Of a DNA stretch of 64,000 nucleotides, positions 5,857 through 14,856 are shown piece after piece. The notes beneath the pieces are model-generated. The model was not told the origin of the DNA and made no database searches. It worked only from the letters and a program-made list of their open reading frames with translations. The stretch is taken from assembly GCA_009926865.1 (NCBI GenBank), contig RFOD01000005.1:1-64000 (forward strand), read 5' to 3'. This DNA comes from Gammaproteobacteria bacterium (GTDB taxonomy: Bacteria > Pseudomonadota > Gammaproteobacteria > Steroidobacterales > Steroidobacteraceae). Both the position numbers and the translations under genes were made by a program. Positions within the stretch are counted from its first letter, which is position 1. Each line of letters opens with the position of its first letter.

Positions 5857-7136
5857 TCAATCCCGTGGTTGCGGAGTGAGTGTTCTCGATGGCGACTGAC
5901 TCATCCAGCCTTTCAACAAGACATTGGGGAGAAAGCTGTTGTCCCATTCCTGCCCCTCGCCCCGAGGCGGGGAAGACCCAACTCTGACAATGACCATGTC
6001 CGCTGACGGGATCATGTACACGACTTGATTGGCGTTGCCATCGAACAGGAAGACATCGTTCGATAAATAAGGTTCCGAGTGCAAAACACGTAAGGCGGGT
6101 CGATCGCGCTCGGGGTTAGCAAAACCGCGACGCTCGATATATCGACCCGCCATATACACGCCCATCCCATAGTAGGGATTTTGGGCGGTGCCTCGGCGCA
6201 TCTCAGCCACGTATCCAGGGGGCAGTAACCGACGATCGGCCCAGACACCATCGGACATGAGCAGCAAACCTAAACGCAACCAGCTCTCGGGCGGCAACAG
6301 CAGGCAGCACCCAGAGTGAGCAGTCCCACCTAGCCGATTGACCCAAATATCGCCGCCCATCGCGCCCAACGGCTGCAGAATCTCCGTGGCCAAAAACTCA
6401 GCATATCGACGACCCGTTGCGCGCTTGATCAATAGCGCCACCAACTCTGAGGTCGCATTGTTGTACTCGTAGCGCGTACCCGGTTCATGCACCAACGGGT
6501 ATTCGTACAAGATAACCTCATCATGACGAGGGTGTAGATAAGCTCGATTCAACACATCCTCAGCCGTGGTGGCGGCGGCCTGCGGCAGGAGACCCGAGCG
6601 CATGTCGAGCAGATGGCGTACTAATATCTTTGATCGCCCGGGATCGTCACGCCACTCGGTAATAAAATCACTGATCGGCTGGTCCAGCGAGCGAATGGCG
6701 CCAAGTTCTAGGGCGCGACCAATCGCGACGGCTGACATGGGTTTCGCGAGCGAACGTTGGCGTCACCCTGAAAGTAGCGGGCCATTTGTAGCTTTCCGCC
6801 CTGCCAAACCAGTAGCGCGATCGACCGATTGGCAGCAGCATAGGCTTCCGCCTGCGCCAAAGCCTCAGCGTTGATCGTCACGTTCTCAGCATCCACCACC
6901 TCAAACGCCTGATCGTCGGTTGCCCCAGGCACCGACTCCAGCGGATCGTAGGTCTCAAGGCCAAGCCCTGACCGGAACGACTCCATCAAAGTCGCAAATC
7001 TTTGTTGGTACACCGCCTCATCCTCAGCTGAGAAACGAGACGAAGCGGCACGGACTTCAGTCGTCACAAGCGCAGTAACGAAGGCGGTTGCTGCGACAAG
7101 CGTCAGCGAAATAAAGTGGCGAGAATTCATCAGCAA
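5857..7136 (-). pseudogene. Beta-lactamase-family (class C-like) serine hydrolase, split by a frameshift near the SxxK motif
   Basis: N-terminal ORF 6708-7136 ends in ...ARYFQGDANVRSRNPCQPSRLVAP; C-terminal ORF 5857-6738 starts at MSAVAIGRALELG. Extending the second frame upstream gives SLAKPMSAVAIG (SxxK) just after an in-frame stop. YEYNNATSELVALL and GGTAHSGCCLLLPPESWLRLG are typical of the family. Confidence 0.8.
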
Positions 7137-8493: not shown

Positions 8494-8684
8494 TTTCGAT
8501 CGTCCGTTGTATCCATAGATATCGTCGCTCCAGCAAACTCGAACCCACTCACCCATTGAGAGCGATGCGAAAAATCGCACGAATGGTGGCAATGGACTAT
8601 TGCTGAAAGTACCTATCGGTCTATCGGGTGATAGGATTCGGGTGCACATTGGCGCCGATACTGCGCGCCAGATTGAGTGTTCAC

Positions 8685-10226
8685 ATGAGCCAAGACCCAA
8701 CCTCTCAACCCGCTTCCGAATATGAACTGCAGGCGCTGCTAGATGCCACGGTAGATGCGGTCATTGTGATCGACGCGCACGGAATCATTGAAAGCTTCAA
8801 TCGGTCGGGCGAGCGTCTGTTTGGTTACACCTCTGAAGAAGTGATCGGCCACAATGTCAGTATGCTCATGACGCATCGCGATCGCGATTCTCATGATCGA
8901 TACATGGCGCGGTATCTCGCAACGGGGGTCCCGCATATCATCGGGATCGGCCGAGAGGTTGATGCCGAGCACAAAGATGGCAGCGTTTTCCCTGTCTTCC
9001 TCTCAGTGGGTCAGATACACGGATCACGGCCGCCTCGATTCATTGGGCTGCTCCATGACATCACGCTGCGACGGGAGGCCATGATGGCGATCCGTCGCGA
9101 ACGTGATCGAGCGAACATGTACCTCGAAATGGCGCAGGTGATACTGCTTGCCTTGTCGACGGACTATCGTGTGCAACTGATTAATCGCAAAGGCTGCGAA
9201 ACCCTCTCGCGGCGAGAAATGGACTTACTCGGACGCGACTGGCTGCATATTGCGGTGCCGGACGATCAGCGCGCGCTCCTAGAAGAAGAGTTTCGTGCCA
9301 TGGAGCGCGATCCCAGTGGCGCAGAACGCTATTTTGAACACGCCGTGCAATCGGCGCACGGCGAGCGCCGCTTAATTGCCTGGCGCTGTATCCCGATGCG
9401 CAATGCCGAGGGACGACTCACCGGATTTTTCTCCTCTGGCGAAGATATCACCGACTCGAGACGCGCCTTTGAAGACGCCCAAGCCTCGCAAGAACGCCTT
9501 ACCCAAGTCTCGCGTTTAGCCACCCTAGGGGAGATGGCTGCGGGCATCGCCCATGAGCTCAACCAACCACTCGCCGCCATCAGCAACTACGCACACGCCG
9601 CTCAGCGTTTTGCGCAGTCTCTCGCGCTTGATCGGATTGATACAGATGGCGATATTCGCGCCGCTCTCGAGCAAATCGCCTCGCAAGCCGTCCGTGCCGG
9701 AGAAATCATTCGCCGGTTACGCGGTCTGGTTCAAAACCGCAATACACAAAAAGAGCCGAGCGACCTTAACCATTTGCTTCAGGAAGTACTCGGTTTTGTC
9801 CAAAGTGAGATTCGTTTACGCCAAATCCGAATTTCTTTGGAGCTAGACCCAACACTCCCATCTGTACCTCTCGATCGCATCCAAATACAACAGGTGCTCC
9901 TGAACCTGCTTCGTAATGCCATCGAGGCACTCGAAAATGCACCACCGACGGCGCGGCAGATTCTATTGCGCACTCAAAGCTCGCCGAGTTCGGGCTACAT
10001 CCGTTTTGTAATTAGTGACTCGGGACCTGGTGTTCCCGAGGACATCTTGCCTCAAATCTTTGATCCATTTTGCACCAGCAAGTCAACGGGAACAGGCTTG
10101 GGTCTCGCGATCAGTCGAACCATTGCGGAGGCGCACCACGGCAAGCTGAACTACGAGCACGCTCCTGGCGGGGGGGCACAATTTGTGCTCAGCCTGCCCC
10201 ACTCAAATCCAGGGGGATCTTTATGA
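8685..10226 (+). CDS. fixL: Oxygen-sensor-type histidine kinase FixL (two PAS domains, HisKA/HATPase)
   Basis: RDSHDRYMARYLATGVPHIIGIGREVDAEHKDGSVFPVFLSVGQ matches the heme-PAS His and Arg segment of FixL; H-box AAGIAHELNQPLAAI; STGTGLGLAISRTIAEAHHG. Start taken at MSQDPTSQ. Confidence 0.88.
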   Translation: MSQDPTSQPASEYELQALLDATVDAVIVIDAHGIIESFNRSGERLFGYTSEEVIGHNVSMLMTHRDRDSHDRYMARYLATGVPHIIGIGREVDAEHKDGSVFPVFLSVGQIHGSRPPRFIGLLHDITLRREAMMAIRRERDRANMYLEMAQVILLALSTDYRVQLINRKGCETLSRREMDLLGRDWLHIAVPDDQRALLEEEFRAMERDPSGAERYFEHAVQSAHGERRLIAWRCIPMRNAEGRLTGFFSSGEDITDSRRAFEDAQASQERLTQVSRLATLGEMAAGIAHELNQPLAAISNYAHAAQRFAQSLALDRIDTDGDIRAALEQIASQAVRAGEIIRRLRGLVQNRNTQKEPSDLNHLLQEVLGFVQSEIRLRQIRISLELDPTLPSVPLDRIQIQQVLLNLLRNAIEALENAPPTARQILLRTQSSPSSGYIRFVISDSGPGVPEDILPQIFDPFCTSKSTGTGLGLAISRTIAEAHHGKLNYEHAPGGGAQFVLSLPHSNPGGSL

Positions 10227-10846
10227 AAACAGCCACCGTCCATGTGGTCGATGATGATGACGCGGTCCGCAGCTCACTTAAGTTATTGCTGAAGTCGGTG
10301 GGCTTAACCACCTCAGTCTATGCCTCGGCACAAGAGTTTTTGAGTCTGTGGCAACCCGATCACGCAGGCTGTTTAGTATTGGATGTGCGTATGCCAGGTA
10401 TGAGCGGACCGGAAGTCCAAATGGAACTCAACGCGCGGGGCGCCATTATTCCAGTGATATTTATCAGCGGTCACGGCGATATTCCGATGGCGGTGGAGGC
10501 GATTCAGCACGGGGCATTCGACTTTTTACAAAAACCGTTTCGCGATCAGGACCTCATTGATCGAGTGCAGCGTGCACTCGCGGCCGATGGCGAAAATCGA
10601 AAATTGCTCTCGCAACGCGATACGCTGCGATCGCGCTATGAATCATTGACCCCTCGCGAACAGGAAGTGCTTGCACTCGTCACCCAAGGCAAAGCCAACA
10701 AAGTGATGGCTGGTGATCTTGGTGTCAGCCAGCGTACGGTAGAAATCCATCGGGCGCGAGTGATGGAAAAAATGGGTGCACACTCGCTCGCCCAACTCGT
10801 ACGTATGGTGCTGGAGCTTGAGAACGACCTCACGACGTCACACTGA
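10223..10846 (+). CDS. fixJ: FixJ-family response regulator (REC + LuxR HTH)
   Basis: MKTATVHVVDDDDAVRSSLKLLL, LVLDVRMPGMSG, LTPREQEVLALVTQGKANKVMAGDLGVSQRTVEIHRARVMEKMGAHSLAQLVRM; ATGA overlap with fixL. Confidence 0.92.
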   Translation: MKTATVHVVDDDDAVRSSLKLLLKSVGLTTSVYASAQEFLSLWQPDHAGCLVLDVRMPGMSGPEVQMELNARGAIIPVIFISGHGDIPMAVEAIQHGAFDFLQKPFRDQDLIDRVQRALAADGENRKLLSQRDTLRSRYESLTPREQEVLALVTQGKANKVMAGDLGVSQRTVEIHRARVMEKMGAHSLAQLVRMVLELENDLTTSH

Positions 10847-11110
10847 TCTAACGCGCACGCTGCTGCAGATCTGCTACTCCTCAGGGAAAGCTTGAGCCCG
10901 CCACCCGACAGCATTCGTCTTGCGCGACGGACACTCAAAATCATCCGCCAAAATTTTCGTTGGGCGGCAGCCCATAATTTCACCGCGCTACCGATCGCGG
11001 TACTCGGCCTGATACCGCCATGGGTGGCGGCGATTGGCACGTCGCCCTCCTCACTCTGGGTGGTCTTTAACGCGCGTCGGCTAGCCGCTGATCAAATCAA
11101 GGAGGCATGA
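10847..11110 (+). pseudogene. C-terminal remnant of a FixI/CcoI-type cation-transporting P-type ATPase
   Basis: The reading frame directly after the fixJ stop is SNAHAAADLLLLRESLSPPPDSIRLARRTLKIIRQNFRWAAAHNFTALPIAVLGLIPPWVAAIGTSPSSLWVVFNARRLAADQIKEA*. This is the terminal TM region of FixI/CcoI; no DKTGT, GDGxND or metal-binding domain precedes it. Confidence 0.85.
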
Positions 11111-11283
11111 TGGCCAGTATTTACTTACTGAGACCGCTATCGATTTTTTTGGTAGGTCTGGCTATCTGGGCATTTTTTTGGGCTGTCGATCAAGATCAAT
11201 TCGAAGACCTCGAGGGGCCCTCCCGATTAGCGCTCGAGGGGGATCAACCGCTCAGCGAGGACGCCAAACCACGCCCAGATTAA
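11107..11283 (+). CDS. ccoS: Cbb3-type cytochrome oxidase assembly protein CcoS/FixS
   Basis: Short ORF absent from the track (58 aa): MMASIYLLRPLSIFLVGLAIWAFFWAVDQDQFEDLEGPSRLALEGDQPLSEDAKPRPD. AFFWAV..DQFEDLEGP is the CcoS signature; ATGA overlap with the P-ATPase remnant. Confidence 0.92.
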   Translation: MMASIYLLRPLSIFLVGLAIWAFFWAVDQDQFEDLEGPSRLALEGDQPLSEDAKPRPD

Positions 11284-12121
11284 AACTACTAAAACGCGCG
11301 AACGCGTAGACCTTATCGTTATCGGCACCGCCATCTAAAAAACGCAGCTGGCCGCGCACGCGCCAATCATCCGAGAGCGAATACGAGAATCCTGCGCCCA
11401 AATCGACGGCGTAGCCTGGACCACCACCCAAAGCATCGATATCTGCCTCGAGTAACCAGCGGTCTGCAAGGGGCTTTTCAACGGCCGCATGCAGCAAGGG
11501 GACAAAGCCCGTATCGTTCTTACTGGCAACTAGCGACCCTTGTCGTAAACGAATACTGGCGTCACGTACTTTAGCGGTAAAACCGACTTTCACTCGTAAA
11601 TCTGCGCGGTCGATCCAAAGATAACGCCAGGTAAGACGCCAAGAGTTGAACTGATAACGGGCATCAATGGAACCCGATGCGAAACTTGCTCCCTGAAACG
11701 CAATATCCGTCGCGCTGGTGCCCGACTCAGACAGCGCCAGCGGTGCAAGCAAGATCCGCCACTCTTGCCGCTCACGCCACTGTCCAGACAGCTCGATACG
11801 ACCGGCGACCCAGGGTCCGTCACCTGTCAACGCATCCAGCGCGAAGCGCGATGCCGACCCATCATTGGGCACCTCGACATCATTACGACCTTGCCAAGTG
11901 ACCACCGCGCTCGCAGAGATCTCCTCCAGGGTCGACTCAGTGGCCGAGACGGTGGGCCCAACTATGAGAGCGCCGACCCAGAGAGCGCCGACGACAAGAC
12001 CATTCATCATAAAACCGCCCACGGCGATAGGGCACCCCGTTACGAAGTCCGCTAAGACTCCAGCCTTAGACTTTTGCGGACCAGACACACGCTGATCGAT
12101 TACTTGGGTTGCGCGCATCAA
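11252..12121 (-). CDS. Putative outer-membrane beta-barrel-like protein of unknown function
   Basis: 289 aa; hydrophobic N-terminal segment and alternating aromatic/hydrophobic strands, ending FNLGVVWRPR; follows ppc on the - strand with a 4-nt overlap. Confidence 0.5.
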   Translation of the reverse strand: MMRATQVIDQRVSGPQKSKAGVLADFVTGCPIAVGGFMMNGLVVGALWVGALIVGPTVSATESTLEEISASAVVTWQGRNDVEVPNDGSASRFALDALTGDGPWVAGRIELSGQWRERQEWRILLAPLALSESGTSATDIAFQGASFASGSIDARYQFNSWRLTWRYLWIDRADLRVKVGFTAKVRDASIRLRQGSLVASKNDTGFVPLLHAAVEKPLADRWLLEADIDALGGGPGYAVDLGAGFSYSLSDDWRVRGQLRFLDGGADNDKVYAFARFSSFNLGVVWRPR

Positions 12122-14856
12122 CCTGTGCTCTGCAAACCTTGTGAGATTCCATTAATACTGGCAAGTAGCGCATCGAGCAAGTCGCGATTATCACGGCCAC
12201 CGGCACGCCATCGAGACAGCAAATCCACCTGCATCAAATGCATGGGGTCTACATAAGGGTTTCTCAATTGCAGCGCGCGCTGTTGCATCGGCTCCTCCTC
12301 CAATAAATCCGCATGTCCTGTGATTTTCAACAAGCTCGTACAAGCGAGCTCATGTTCTCGACTGATCATCTCAAAAAATTGATTACTCTCTTTGATCTGA
12401 TGGCTCGCGAGCGGCAAGTAATGCGCACTGATCGCAAGATCCGTTCGCGACAACATCACCGACAAATCATCAAATAGATGACTCAAAAACGGTTTACGCC
12501 ACGCTGCGCGACACGCTTCCAGACCAAATTGTTGCAAGGCAGCCTGTAACGCTGTGCCAGCGCCAAACCAACCGGGCAAAAGCATCCGATTTTGTGTCCA
12601 GGCAAATACCCAAGGAACCGCACGAATCGCCATCAAACCGCTGTGTCCATGTCGTGTCGTCGGTCGATTGCCGATTTGCATGCGTTCAATCACATCAATC
12701 GGAGTTACCGCCCGGAACCACGCTTCGAAGCCAGGGGACTCGATGATCAGTTCGCGGTACACCCGTGCGCCCGCGACCGCCATGCACTCGGCGATTGGTA
12801 ACCAATCGTTATCCGATGGTACGTCGCCCTCTGGAGCGCCGACTGATGCCGTCGCGAGCGACAAAGATCCAAACGCGCGCTCTAGGGTGCGCAGCGCAAT
12901 CGAGCCCAACCCATAGTGATGATTAATGCCCTCGCCTTGTTCGGTCAGTGCGAGCCAGCCGTTGATGGCGCTCGCTGGCATCCCATTCAGCATGGCATCG
13001 ACGCGACCGCCACCGCGAGGAATACTGCCGCCTCTCGCATGACACAAAAGCTGCTTTTCACCGGCTGCGTGCAGAGCCTTGACGATATCCCCTTGGGCTC
13101 GATACGCCGCAAAGCGTGAGGCAACGATACCAGCTTGCTTACTGCTCTCGGAGTATCCTACCCACACCCATTGGCGCTGGCCGCGACCATCCAAATGTCG
13201 TCGATAGAGCGGCTCTGCCAATAGGCGCGATAGACTGCTCCCAGCGGCCTCCAGCGCCTGCATCGAATCAAACATCGGCGCAAAGTCGATCGCCACTAGG
13301 TCGGTATCTTTGTTGACCGCATCGGCCCAACGCGCAAGCAACACCGGCGCCAACATATCATCCGCACTCGTCACGCCGTTCACCACATACGCCCCAACCG
13401 AGGCATCACCGTATCGGCGACGACTCTGCAGTAAGGTGGCAAATACCGCCAGCGTACGCTTACCGAGCGCGTCCAAATCCGCTTTAGGGCCTACATCCTG
13501 TTCAAGCCACGAAACTAGCTGAGCATGTCTATCTGCCGCTGTCAGTAGTAACCAATCGGGGCGATCCATGGCCCGCGAGATCACCCCGTGGTGAATCAAA
13601 CTGTGCTGCCGAACATCAAGTGTCGCCAAATGAAAACCGAAAGTATCAACCCGTCGCTGCAATCGCCGTACGGCATGCAGACCGGCGTAGAGCCCCTTAT
13701 TTGACAACAAACTCTCAGCGACCAAAGAAATATCACGTGCGAACTGCTGCGGATTTTCGTAGCCTGTCGATCGCGACTCATAGGTGGCGCGAAGACGCTC
13801 GGCAACCTGTAGCAAAAATACGCGGTACGGCATACTGTCATGACGCGCCGGCGCACTCGATCGTACATCGGGCATGAGTAAGGCGTATTCCGCCGTTCTT
13901 TGTCGCACCGCCTCGCTCACGGTGACTCGACTACCGCTCTGCGATAAAACCTGCGCTAATTCCTGAACTTCCAAAAAGTAGGCATTGACGATGCCCTGTT
14001 GTTGTCGCGCTAACGTTTCTCGGATGGTTTTCCCGTGCACATCCGGATTACCGTCCATATCCCCGCCCACCCAGGACGCAAAACGAATCAACACAGGAAT
14101 ATCGATCGGATCGGGCGACGATCCGTAATGTTGGCCAATCGCCTCGGCGATTTCCTCGTAGAAATCTGGCACGATCCGGTAGAGCACTTCAGCCAAATAA
14201 AACATCACGTGCTCGCGCTCATCCGCAACCGTTAACTGCTGGCGTGGATGATCGCCCGTTTGCCAACTGGTCGTCAGTTCACTGCGAATTTCCGCCACAG
14301 AGGCCCGTTGCTCGCTCGGCGAAAGGGTCGGATTTAGCCGATCAAACAATAAATCTGCTAAACGCTGCTGCTTACGCAATATCGTTCGACGTGTGGATTC
14401 CGTCGGATGCGACATGAAGACCGGTACGACTTGTAGCGACCGCAGTAGCGCCATTAAAGCGTCTCGATCTAGCCCCTTTTCTTTGAGCGCCCCGATCGCG
14501 GCACTCACACCACCCGGCTGAGGTCGGTGACGATCATCCTGAAAATAAGCGCGACGACGACGCACCCGATGAACTTGTTCAGCGAGATTGACGACCTGAA
14601 ACCACGCCGTAAAAGCCCGCTCCAGTTCACGCGCCATTTCCGGTGACCGACCACGGGTCCGTTGCTCGAGTTCACTGGCTGCATCGAGATCGCCATTACG
14701 TCGAGCGATCGCTAACTGTCGATCGGTTTCGACGACTTCAAAGAGTGCGTCACCCCCCTGATCGCGCAATACCTCGCCGACTAACGAGCCAAGTAGATGC
14801 ACATCCTCGCGTAGCGCGGCATGCTTTGGCGGAAACTGGATCTCGGTGCGGTTCAC
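12118..14856 (-). CDS. ppc: Phosphoenolpyruvate carboxylase
   Basis: 912 aa; VFMSHPTESTRRTIL, FASWVGGDMDGNPDV, VGYSESSKQAGIVASRFAAYRAQ, HARGGSIPRGGG, RNPYVDPMHLMQVDLL. Confidence 0.97.
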   Translation of the reverse strand: MNRTEIQFPPKHAALREDVHLLGSLVGEVLRDQGGDALFEVVETDRQLAIARRNGDLDAASELEQRTRGRSPEMARELERAFTAWFQVVNLAEQVHRVRRRRAYFQDDRHRPQPGGVSAAIGALKEKGLDRDALMALLRSLQVVPVFMSHPTESTRRTILRKQQRLADLLFDRLNPTLSPSEQRASVAEIRSELTTSWQTGDHPRQQLTVADEREHVMFYLAEVLYRIVPDFYEEIAEAIGQHYGSSPDPIDIPVLIRFASWVGGDMDGNPDVHGKTIRETLARQQQGIVNAYFLEVQELAQVLSQSGSRVTVSEAVRQRTAEYALLMPDVRSSAPARHDSMPYRVFLLQVAERLRATYESRSTGYENPQQFARDISLVAESLLSNKGLYAGLHAVRRLQRRVDTFGFHLATLDVRQHSLIHHGVISRAMDRPDWLLLTAADRHAQLVSWLEQDVGPKADLDALGKRTLAVFATLLQSRRRYGDASVGAYVVNGVTSADDMLAPVLLARWADAVNKDTDLVAIDFAPMFDSMQALEAAGSSLSRLLAEPLYRRHLDGRGQRQWVWVGYSESSKQAGIVASRFAAYRAQGDIVKALHAAGEKQLLCHARGGSIPRGGGRVDAMLNGMPASAINGWLALTEQGEGINHHYGLGSIALRTLERAFGSLSLATASVGAPEGDVPSDNDWLPIAECMAVAGARVYRELIIESPGFEAWFRAVTPIDVIERMQIGNRPTTRHGHSGLMAIRAVPWVFAWTQNRMLLPGWFGAGTALQAALQQFGLEACRAAWRKPFLSHLFDDLSVMLSRTDLAISAHYLPLASHQIKESNQFFEMISREHELACTSLLKITGHADLLEEEPMQQRALQLRNPYVDPMHLMQVDLLSRWRAGGRDNRDLLDALLASINGISQGLQSTG

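Follow-up and report, generated by a model that had tools for sequence, protein, structure and literature searches.

A ccoI remnant between fixJ and ccoS, very probably the scar of a cbb3 operon deletion, beside a retained FixLJ oxygen sensor

Organization of the locus

The window, which is the whole stretch of 64,000 nucleotides analysed here, carries an oxygen-sensing gene pair followed by remains of a cytochrome cbb3 oxidase locus. The fixL gene (8685..10226, forward strand) is full length and encodes a haem-PAS oxygen-sensor histidine kinase with PAS, HisKA and HATPase domains. Its haem-PAS region aligns to the Bradyrhizobium FixL structures (BjFixL; E-value of 1.2e-32) and keeps the elements HD-Y, RY and HIIGIGR, which we take to be the haem-PAS residues that include the proximal His and the distal Arg. 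The response regulator gene fixJ (10226..10846, forward strand) is intact, matching the FixJ model with an E-value of 3.3e-69 and its same-genus orthologues with 75–85% identity.

Directly after fixJ, an open frame of 87 residues ends in TGA (10847..11110, forward strand; coding part 10847–11107). Profile, structure and congener alignments assign it to ccoI/fixI, of which it retains the last approximately 80 residues (TM7–TM8), without the catalytic domains. It overlaps by one base, in a TGATG stop/start arrangement also seen between ccoI and ccoS of the congener G007, with a complete 57-codon ccoS frame (11110..11283, forward strand) preceded by AGGAGG at 11100–11105. The ccoS product matches FixS PF03597 (E-value of 4.9e-15) and TIGR00847 (E-value of 1.1e-10; 41 bits against a cut-off of 28.35), the family profile covering most of this short protein. 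On the right flank, two genes recognized by synteny with congeners lie on the reverse strand: one convergent with ccoS (11252..12121), presumably encoding a porin-like outer-membrane protein to judge by its appearance, and ppc (12118..14856), approximately 60–64% identical to its congeneric counterparts, whose product we take, from its sequence and general knowledge, to be phosphoenolpyruvate carboxylase.

Further to the left, on the reverse strand at 5857–7136, what looks by eye like a serine-hydrolase/beta-lactamase-like protein is spread over two overlapping ORFs (6708–7136 and 5857–6738). At the syntenic place in G019 (L076:5575-7059) there is a single long frame of this kind, and the split in the window is a frameshift or a sequencing error.

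Identity of the ccoI remnant

The remnant matches positions 483–560 of the 560 positions of TIGR01525 (heavy-metal P-type ATPase; E-value of 3.6e-17). It also matches the final part of the copper ATPase model TIGR01511 (E-value of 5.7e-14), aligns with the C-terminal end of copper ATPases in the PDB and is 61–70% identical to the C terminus of congeneric CcoI. The profile matches and the congener identity uphold the initial annotation, made from the sequence alone, which had read the frame as an in-frame C-terminal remnant of FixI/CcoI after fixJ. Its further statement that the catalytic domains are absent also stands: DKTGT, GDGxND and the CPC membrane motif are missing, homology starts at SNAH, and only residues past GDGxND are left. 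Compared with CcoI/FixI, the PIB-type copper ATPase of cbb3 assembly, the frame shares the TM7–TM8 sequence, with its C-terminal helices, and the place just before ccoS. It differs in lacking approximately 90% of the protein (metal-binding, A, P and N domains), all catalytic motifs and the copper-path residues Tyr and Met, which are changed.

Such a tail could in principle still work, as a two-helix membrane protein of reduced size that pairs with CcoS, and its 87 open codons, the retained TGATG coupling to ccoS and a coding-like codon-position pattern speak for this. Against it, there is no conserved start; the sole candidate, TTG at 10892, lies on ancestral Leu-Arg-Glu-Ser-Leu codons. Nor was a stand-alone copy of the tail found in the 23 other same-genus genomes searched. 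The stand-alone form occurs in the window only, the other ten tail-bearing congeners having the tail inside a frame of 272–969 codons, the shorter of which are cut by contig ends; the initial annotation had named conservation of the short ORF as a gene of its own in relatives as the finding that would undo its reading, and these ten long ccoI frames show the opposite. Relatives have an intact ccoI orthologue at the corresponding position in the gene order.

The junction and the missing genes

Homology to fixJ on the left meets homology to ccoI on the right at 10841..10855, where the fixJ stop is joined to the ccoI codons for SNAH. The ccoI homology starts at the first or second codon past the fixJ stop (window SNAHAAADLLLLRES versus SSIAHAAGDLLLLRES), which places the breakpoint within a few bases of 10846, at or just after the fixJ stop as originally proposed. 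The sequence around the junction showed no repeat.

In congeners, the gene order on single contigs is usp-fixL-fixJ-ccoNOQPGHIS-porin-ppc; the porin-like gene is absent from some, and some may have a small cytochrome c-like gene between fixJ and ccoN. The distance from fixJ to ccoS is 7.7–8.8 kb in five genomes (G006, G007, G010, G011 and G015) and less than 300 bases in the window, which has the usp/fixL/fixJ side and the porin/ppc side and is without ccoNOQPGH and approximately 90% of ccoI. Because both flanks follow the conserved order, the junction is not a fusion of unrelated sequences. That congeners carry ccoNOQPGHI at this place agrees with the earlier suggestion that a deletion may have removed cco/fix genes between fixJ and ccoS.

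The segment between fixJ and ccoS is therefore very probably a scar, left when one deletion of approximately 7.4 kb took ccoNOQPGH and the first approximately 90% of ccoI and spared ccoS. Observations of several kinds carry this reading: homology, synteny, the lack of the other genes in the assembly, the position in the tree and the loss of copper-path residues. One event would have removed the approximately 7.4 kb missing relative to congeners and joined the fixJ stop codon in frame to the last approximately 80 codons of ccoI. The tail would then be a non-functional pseudogene fragment, and ccoS an orphan, read along with fixLJ and presumably idle.

Terminal oxidases elsewhere in the genome

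The genome is a draft of 103 contigs that is 97% complete, so the cbb3 operon might exist in the organism and have been dropped during contig building. The searches for the missing genes covered CcoO, CcoN, CcoG and CcoI. FixO/CcoO had no match in any of the 103 contigs, and CcoN had none beyond a single COX1, which is of the aa3 type and adjoins coxB and ctaG. In cbb3-plus congeners, COX1 gives two or three matches, some of them split by contig ends. CcoG was likewise not found in the 103 contigs, in a search that had no positive control. The genome search for a second full ccoI that had been proposed at the outset returned neither a second CcoI nor another CcoI tail; this genome has just one other P-type ATPase, a cation pump belonging to a different class. 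These absences, like the lack of a visible repeat at the junction, count against an assembly collapse. Cytochrome bd was also not found in the genome, and respiration would run through the single aa3-type oxidase. There is also no cbb3 oxidase for a two-helix protein to assist.

Decay of the remnant

The Tyr-Asn residues of TM7 and the Met-x-x-Ser-Ser residues of TM8 serve the copper path of these ATPases. All ten aligned full copies have Tyr-Asn and Met-Ser; the window has His-Asn and Thr-Ser-Pro-Ser-Ser, the TM7 Tyr being replaced by His and the TM8 Met by Thr. Among the 43 tail columns that are invariant in nine congeners, seven are changed in the window, as against 0–3 in any other member. 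The FixJ of the window has changes at 4 of 121 invariant columns (Fisher P of 0.008 for tail versus FixJ, in a test that ignores shared ancestry). The tail thus shows the relaxed constraint of a pseudogene remnant. CcoS has no excess of this kind, 0 of 18 invariant columns being changed in a comparison of low power, although it carries LLRPLS in place of LLIPLS.

The loss of two copper-path residues indicates that the tail has been drifting for some time. This is evidence against an assembly collapse: a collapsed assembly should leave an unmutated tail, and here two near-invariant residues are changed. Together with the absence of the missing genes elsewhere, this makes the collapse raised in the initial annotation very unlikely. 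The same residue losses disfavour the locally reduced C-terminal membrane module that it had also offered; as judged from the sequence, the drift argues against a copper-handling function, and we consider a working two-helix protein highly improbable. Two properties of the tail weigh against the deletion scar: no stop interrupts the frame, and its codon-position pattern (p12/p3 of 0.41) does not stand apart from that of functional copies (0.39). Either the deletion is recent on the time scale of the lineage or some constraint is left; as the pattern is still coding-like, the deletion is probably of later date than the lineage.

Recurrent loss in relatives

A tree was built from FixL, FixJ and Ppc, with a second version from FixLJ alone. 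The window is placed beside a cbb3-plus clade of G001, G005, G007 and G023 with a bootstrap support of 75, rising to 91 with FixLJ alone; G005 and G023 show just part of the operon, as contigs end there. Three further cbb3-minus loci also adjoin cbb3-plus relatives: G009 beside G010 and G015, G014 beside G021, and G019 contig 94 beside G006 and G019 contig 4. The scars differ among the cbb3-minus loci. In the G009 locus, the ccoN promoter element and the final codons of ccoS have been left behind (L080:6080-6220), G014 has a scar resembling that of G009 between fixJ and the porin-like gene (L079:9040-9230), and in G019 contig 94 the fixJ frame continues into ccoS-end and ppc-end sequence.

Because each of these three loci has cbb3-plus neighbours and a scar other than that of the window, the simplest account has four losses or more, and the operon has probably been lost at least four times, a count to be read with the likeness of the G009 and G014 scars and with the two fixJ loci of G019, which may be mixed. 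Independent losses in relatives also tell against an assembly artefact in the window. A history in which the operon was never in the lineage, with fixLJ alone ancestral and the cco genes gained by congeners, would fit the observation that the majority of same-genus genomes, many of them incomplete, have no FixO match. This history is almost certainly wrong: the ccoI tail and ccoS of the window and the ccoS end fragments of other cbb3-minus loci are remnants, and cbb3-plus members are spread over the tree with the operon at the same syntenic place.

On the reading of repeated deletion, FixLJ with its haem-PAS survives in three of the four cbb3-minus loci (the window, G009 and G014), FixL being full length in G009 and G014. 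The FixL of G019 contig 94 (L076:6840-7946) consists of the kinase part only, its PAS sensor region gone; G019, possibly a mixture, has another fixLJ locus as well, which is cbb3-plus. In the window, FixLJ would be an oxygen-sensing two-component system that presumably still signals and is left without its neighbouring target. The recurrence of operon loss and the orphaned oxygen sensor go beyond the initial annotation.

In G009, fixJ and the porin-like gene have a small cytochrome c-like gene between them on the opposite strand (L080:5400-6080; weak CcoP match), and apparently so in G014 (L079:9230-9900). The fixJ–ccoN gaps of three cbb3-plus loci (L066, L067 and L074) would be long enough for such a gene.

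We found no report in the literature of this cbb3 deletion scar. In Bordetella pertussis, functional ccoNOQP has been lost in a lineage-specific manner with the aa3 oxidase kept; functional copies were lost in the descent of one lineage, and premature stops are common to its strains (PMC11257404). Here, too, cbb3 has been lost by lineage and aa3 kept, but the losses affect several species, lie beside a retained FixLJ and came about through deletions whose end points differ. A single deletion scar is ordinary; repeated cbb3 loss with the oxygen sensor retained is the part worth attention. The genus offers a natural series in which the same high-affinity oxidase operon has probably been removed repeatedly from one syntenic place, with different end points and the sensor mostly kept. 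It allows one to ask what FixLJ does once its textbook target is gone, and how fast sensors, promoters and assembly genes decay after the loss of an enzyme.

Candidate FixJ boxes

Upstream of fixL in the window lies a candidate FixJ box, GCTGAAAGTACCTA (8602..8615, forward strand), a putative autoregulatory site put forward for its conservation across loci. The element CATNGCGN5TACSTA, counting near forms, occurs 51–81 bases before the fixL start in 14 of 14 loci, and each of the 14 upstream regions has one TACNTA element, in the context ATNGCN6TACNTA. The box pattern has one match in the window, as it does in 49 of 100 shuffles, so the case for the fixL box rests on conservation.

A candidate box of the form GCGN5TACNTA also precedes ccoN in congeners, whose upstream regions contain GCGTNNTSTACYTATTC or a near form, in tandem in G011 and G017. 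When no mismatch was allowed, a search with the full ccoN pattern in five cbb3-plus genomes gave a single match per genome, lying upstream of ccoN, and the genome of the window gave none. The FixJ site from SELEX is quoted as GTAMGTAG, complement CTACKTAC (PMC4999443); read on the other strand, the box core resembles both this site and GTACGTAG of Rhodopseudomonas palustris fixK (PMC13327599).

These boxes suggest that FixJ may control ccoN and fixL directly, with only the fixL site at 8602–8615 surviving in the window. The arrangement is like the FixLJ–cbb3 regulation of Alphaproteobacteria (PMC4999443, PMC13327599, PMC7078487) in its haem-PAS FixL, its FixJ and its high-affinity oxidase output. 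It differs in that the candidate box stands directly upstream of ccoN and fixL with no fixK between, and in that the oxidase is gone in the window. A tentative reading, less likely than not, is that FixLJ has outlived cbb3 in several lineages of this genus by controlling itself and other genes through GCGN5TACNTA, an oxidase-independent second regulon that the losses would expose.

A search of the genome of the window for further ccoN-type boxes gave two matches with two mismatches, against four for a reversed control, and nothing is claimed from it. Another FixJ-like response regulator, near which a match similar to the box occurs, was rejected, as this match falls inside a long coding frame just upstream. 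Elsewhere in the window, at 301–314, a perfect FNR/ANR-like palindrome, TTGATCGATGTCAA, lies upstream of the ORF at 520–1527; at least one such match occurs in 18 of 100 shuffles, and the palindrome may be due to chance.
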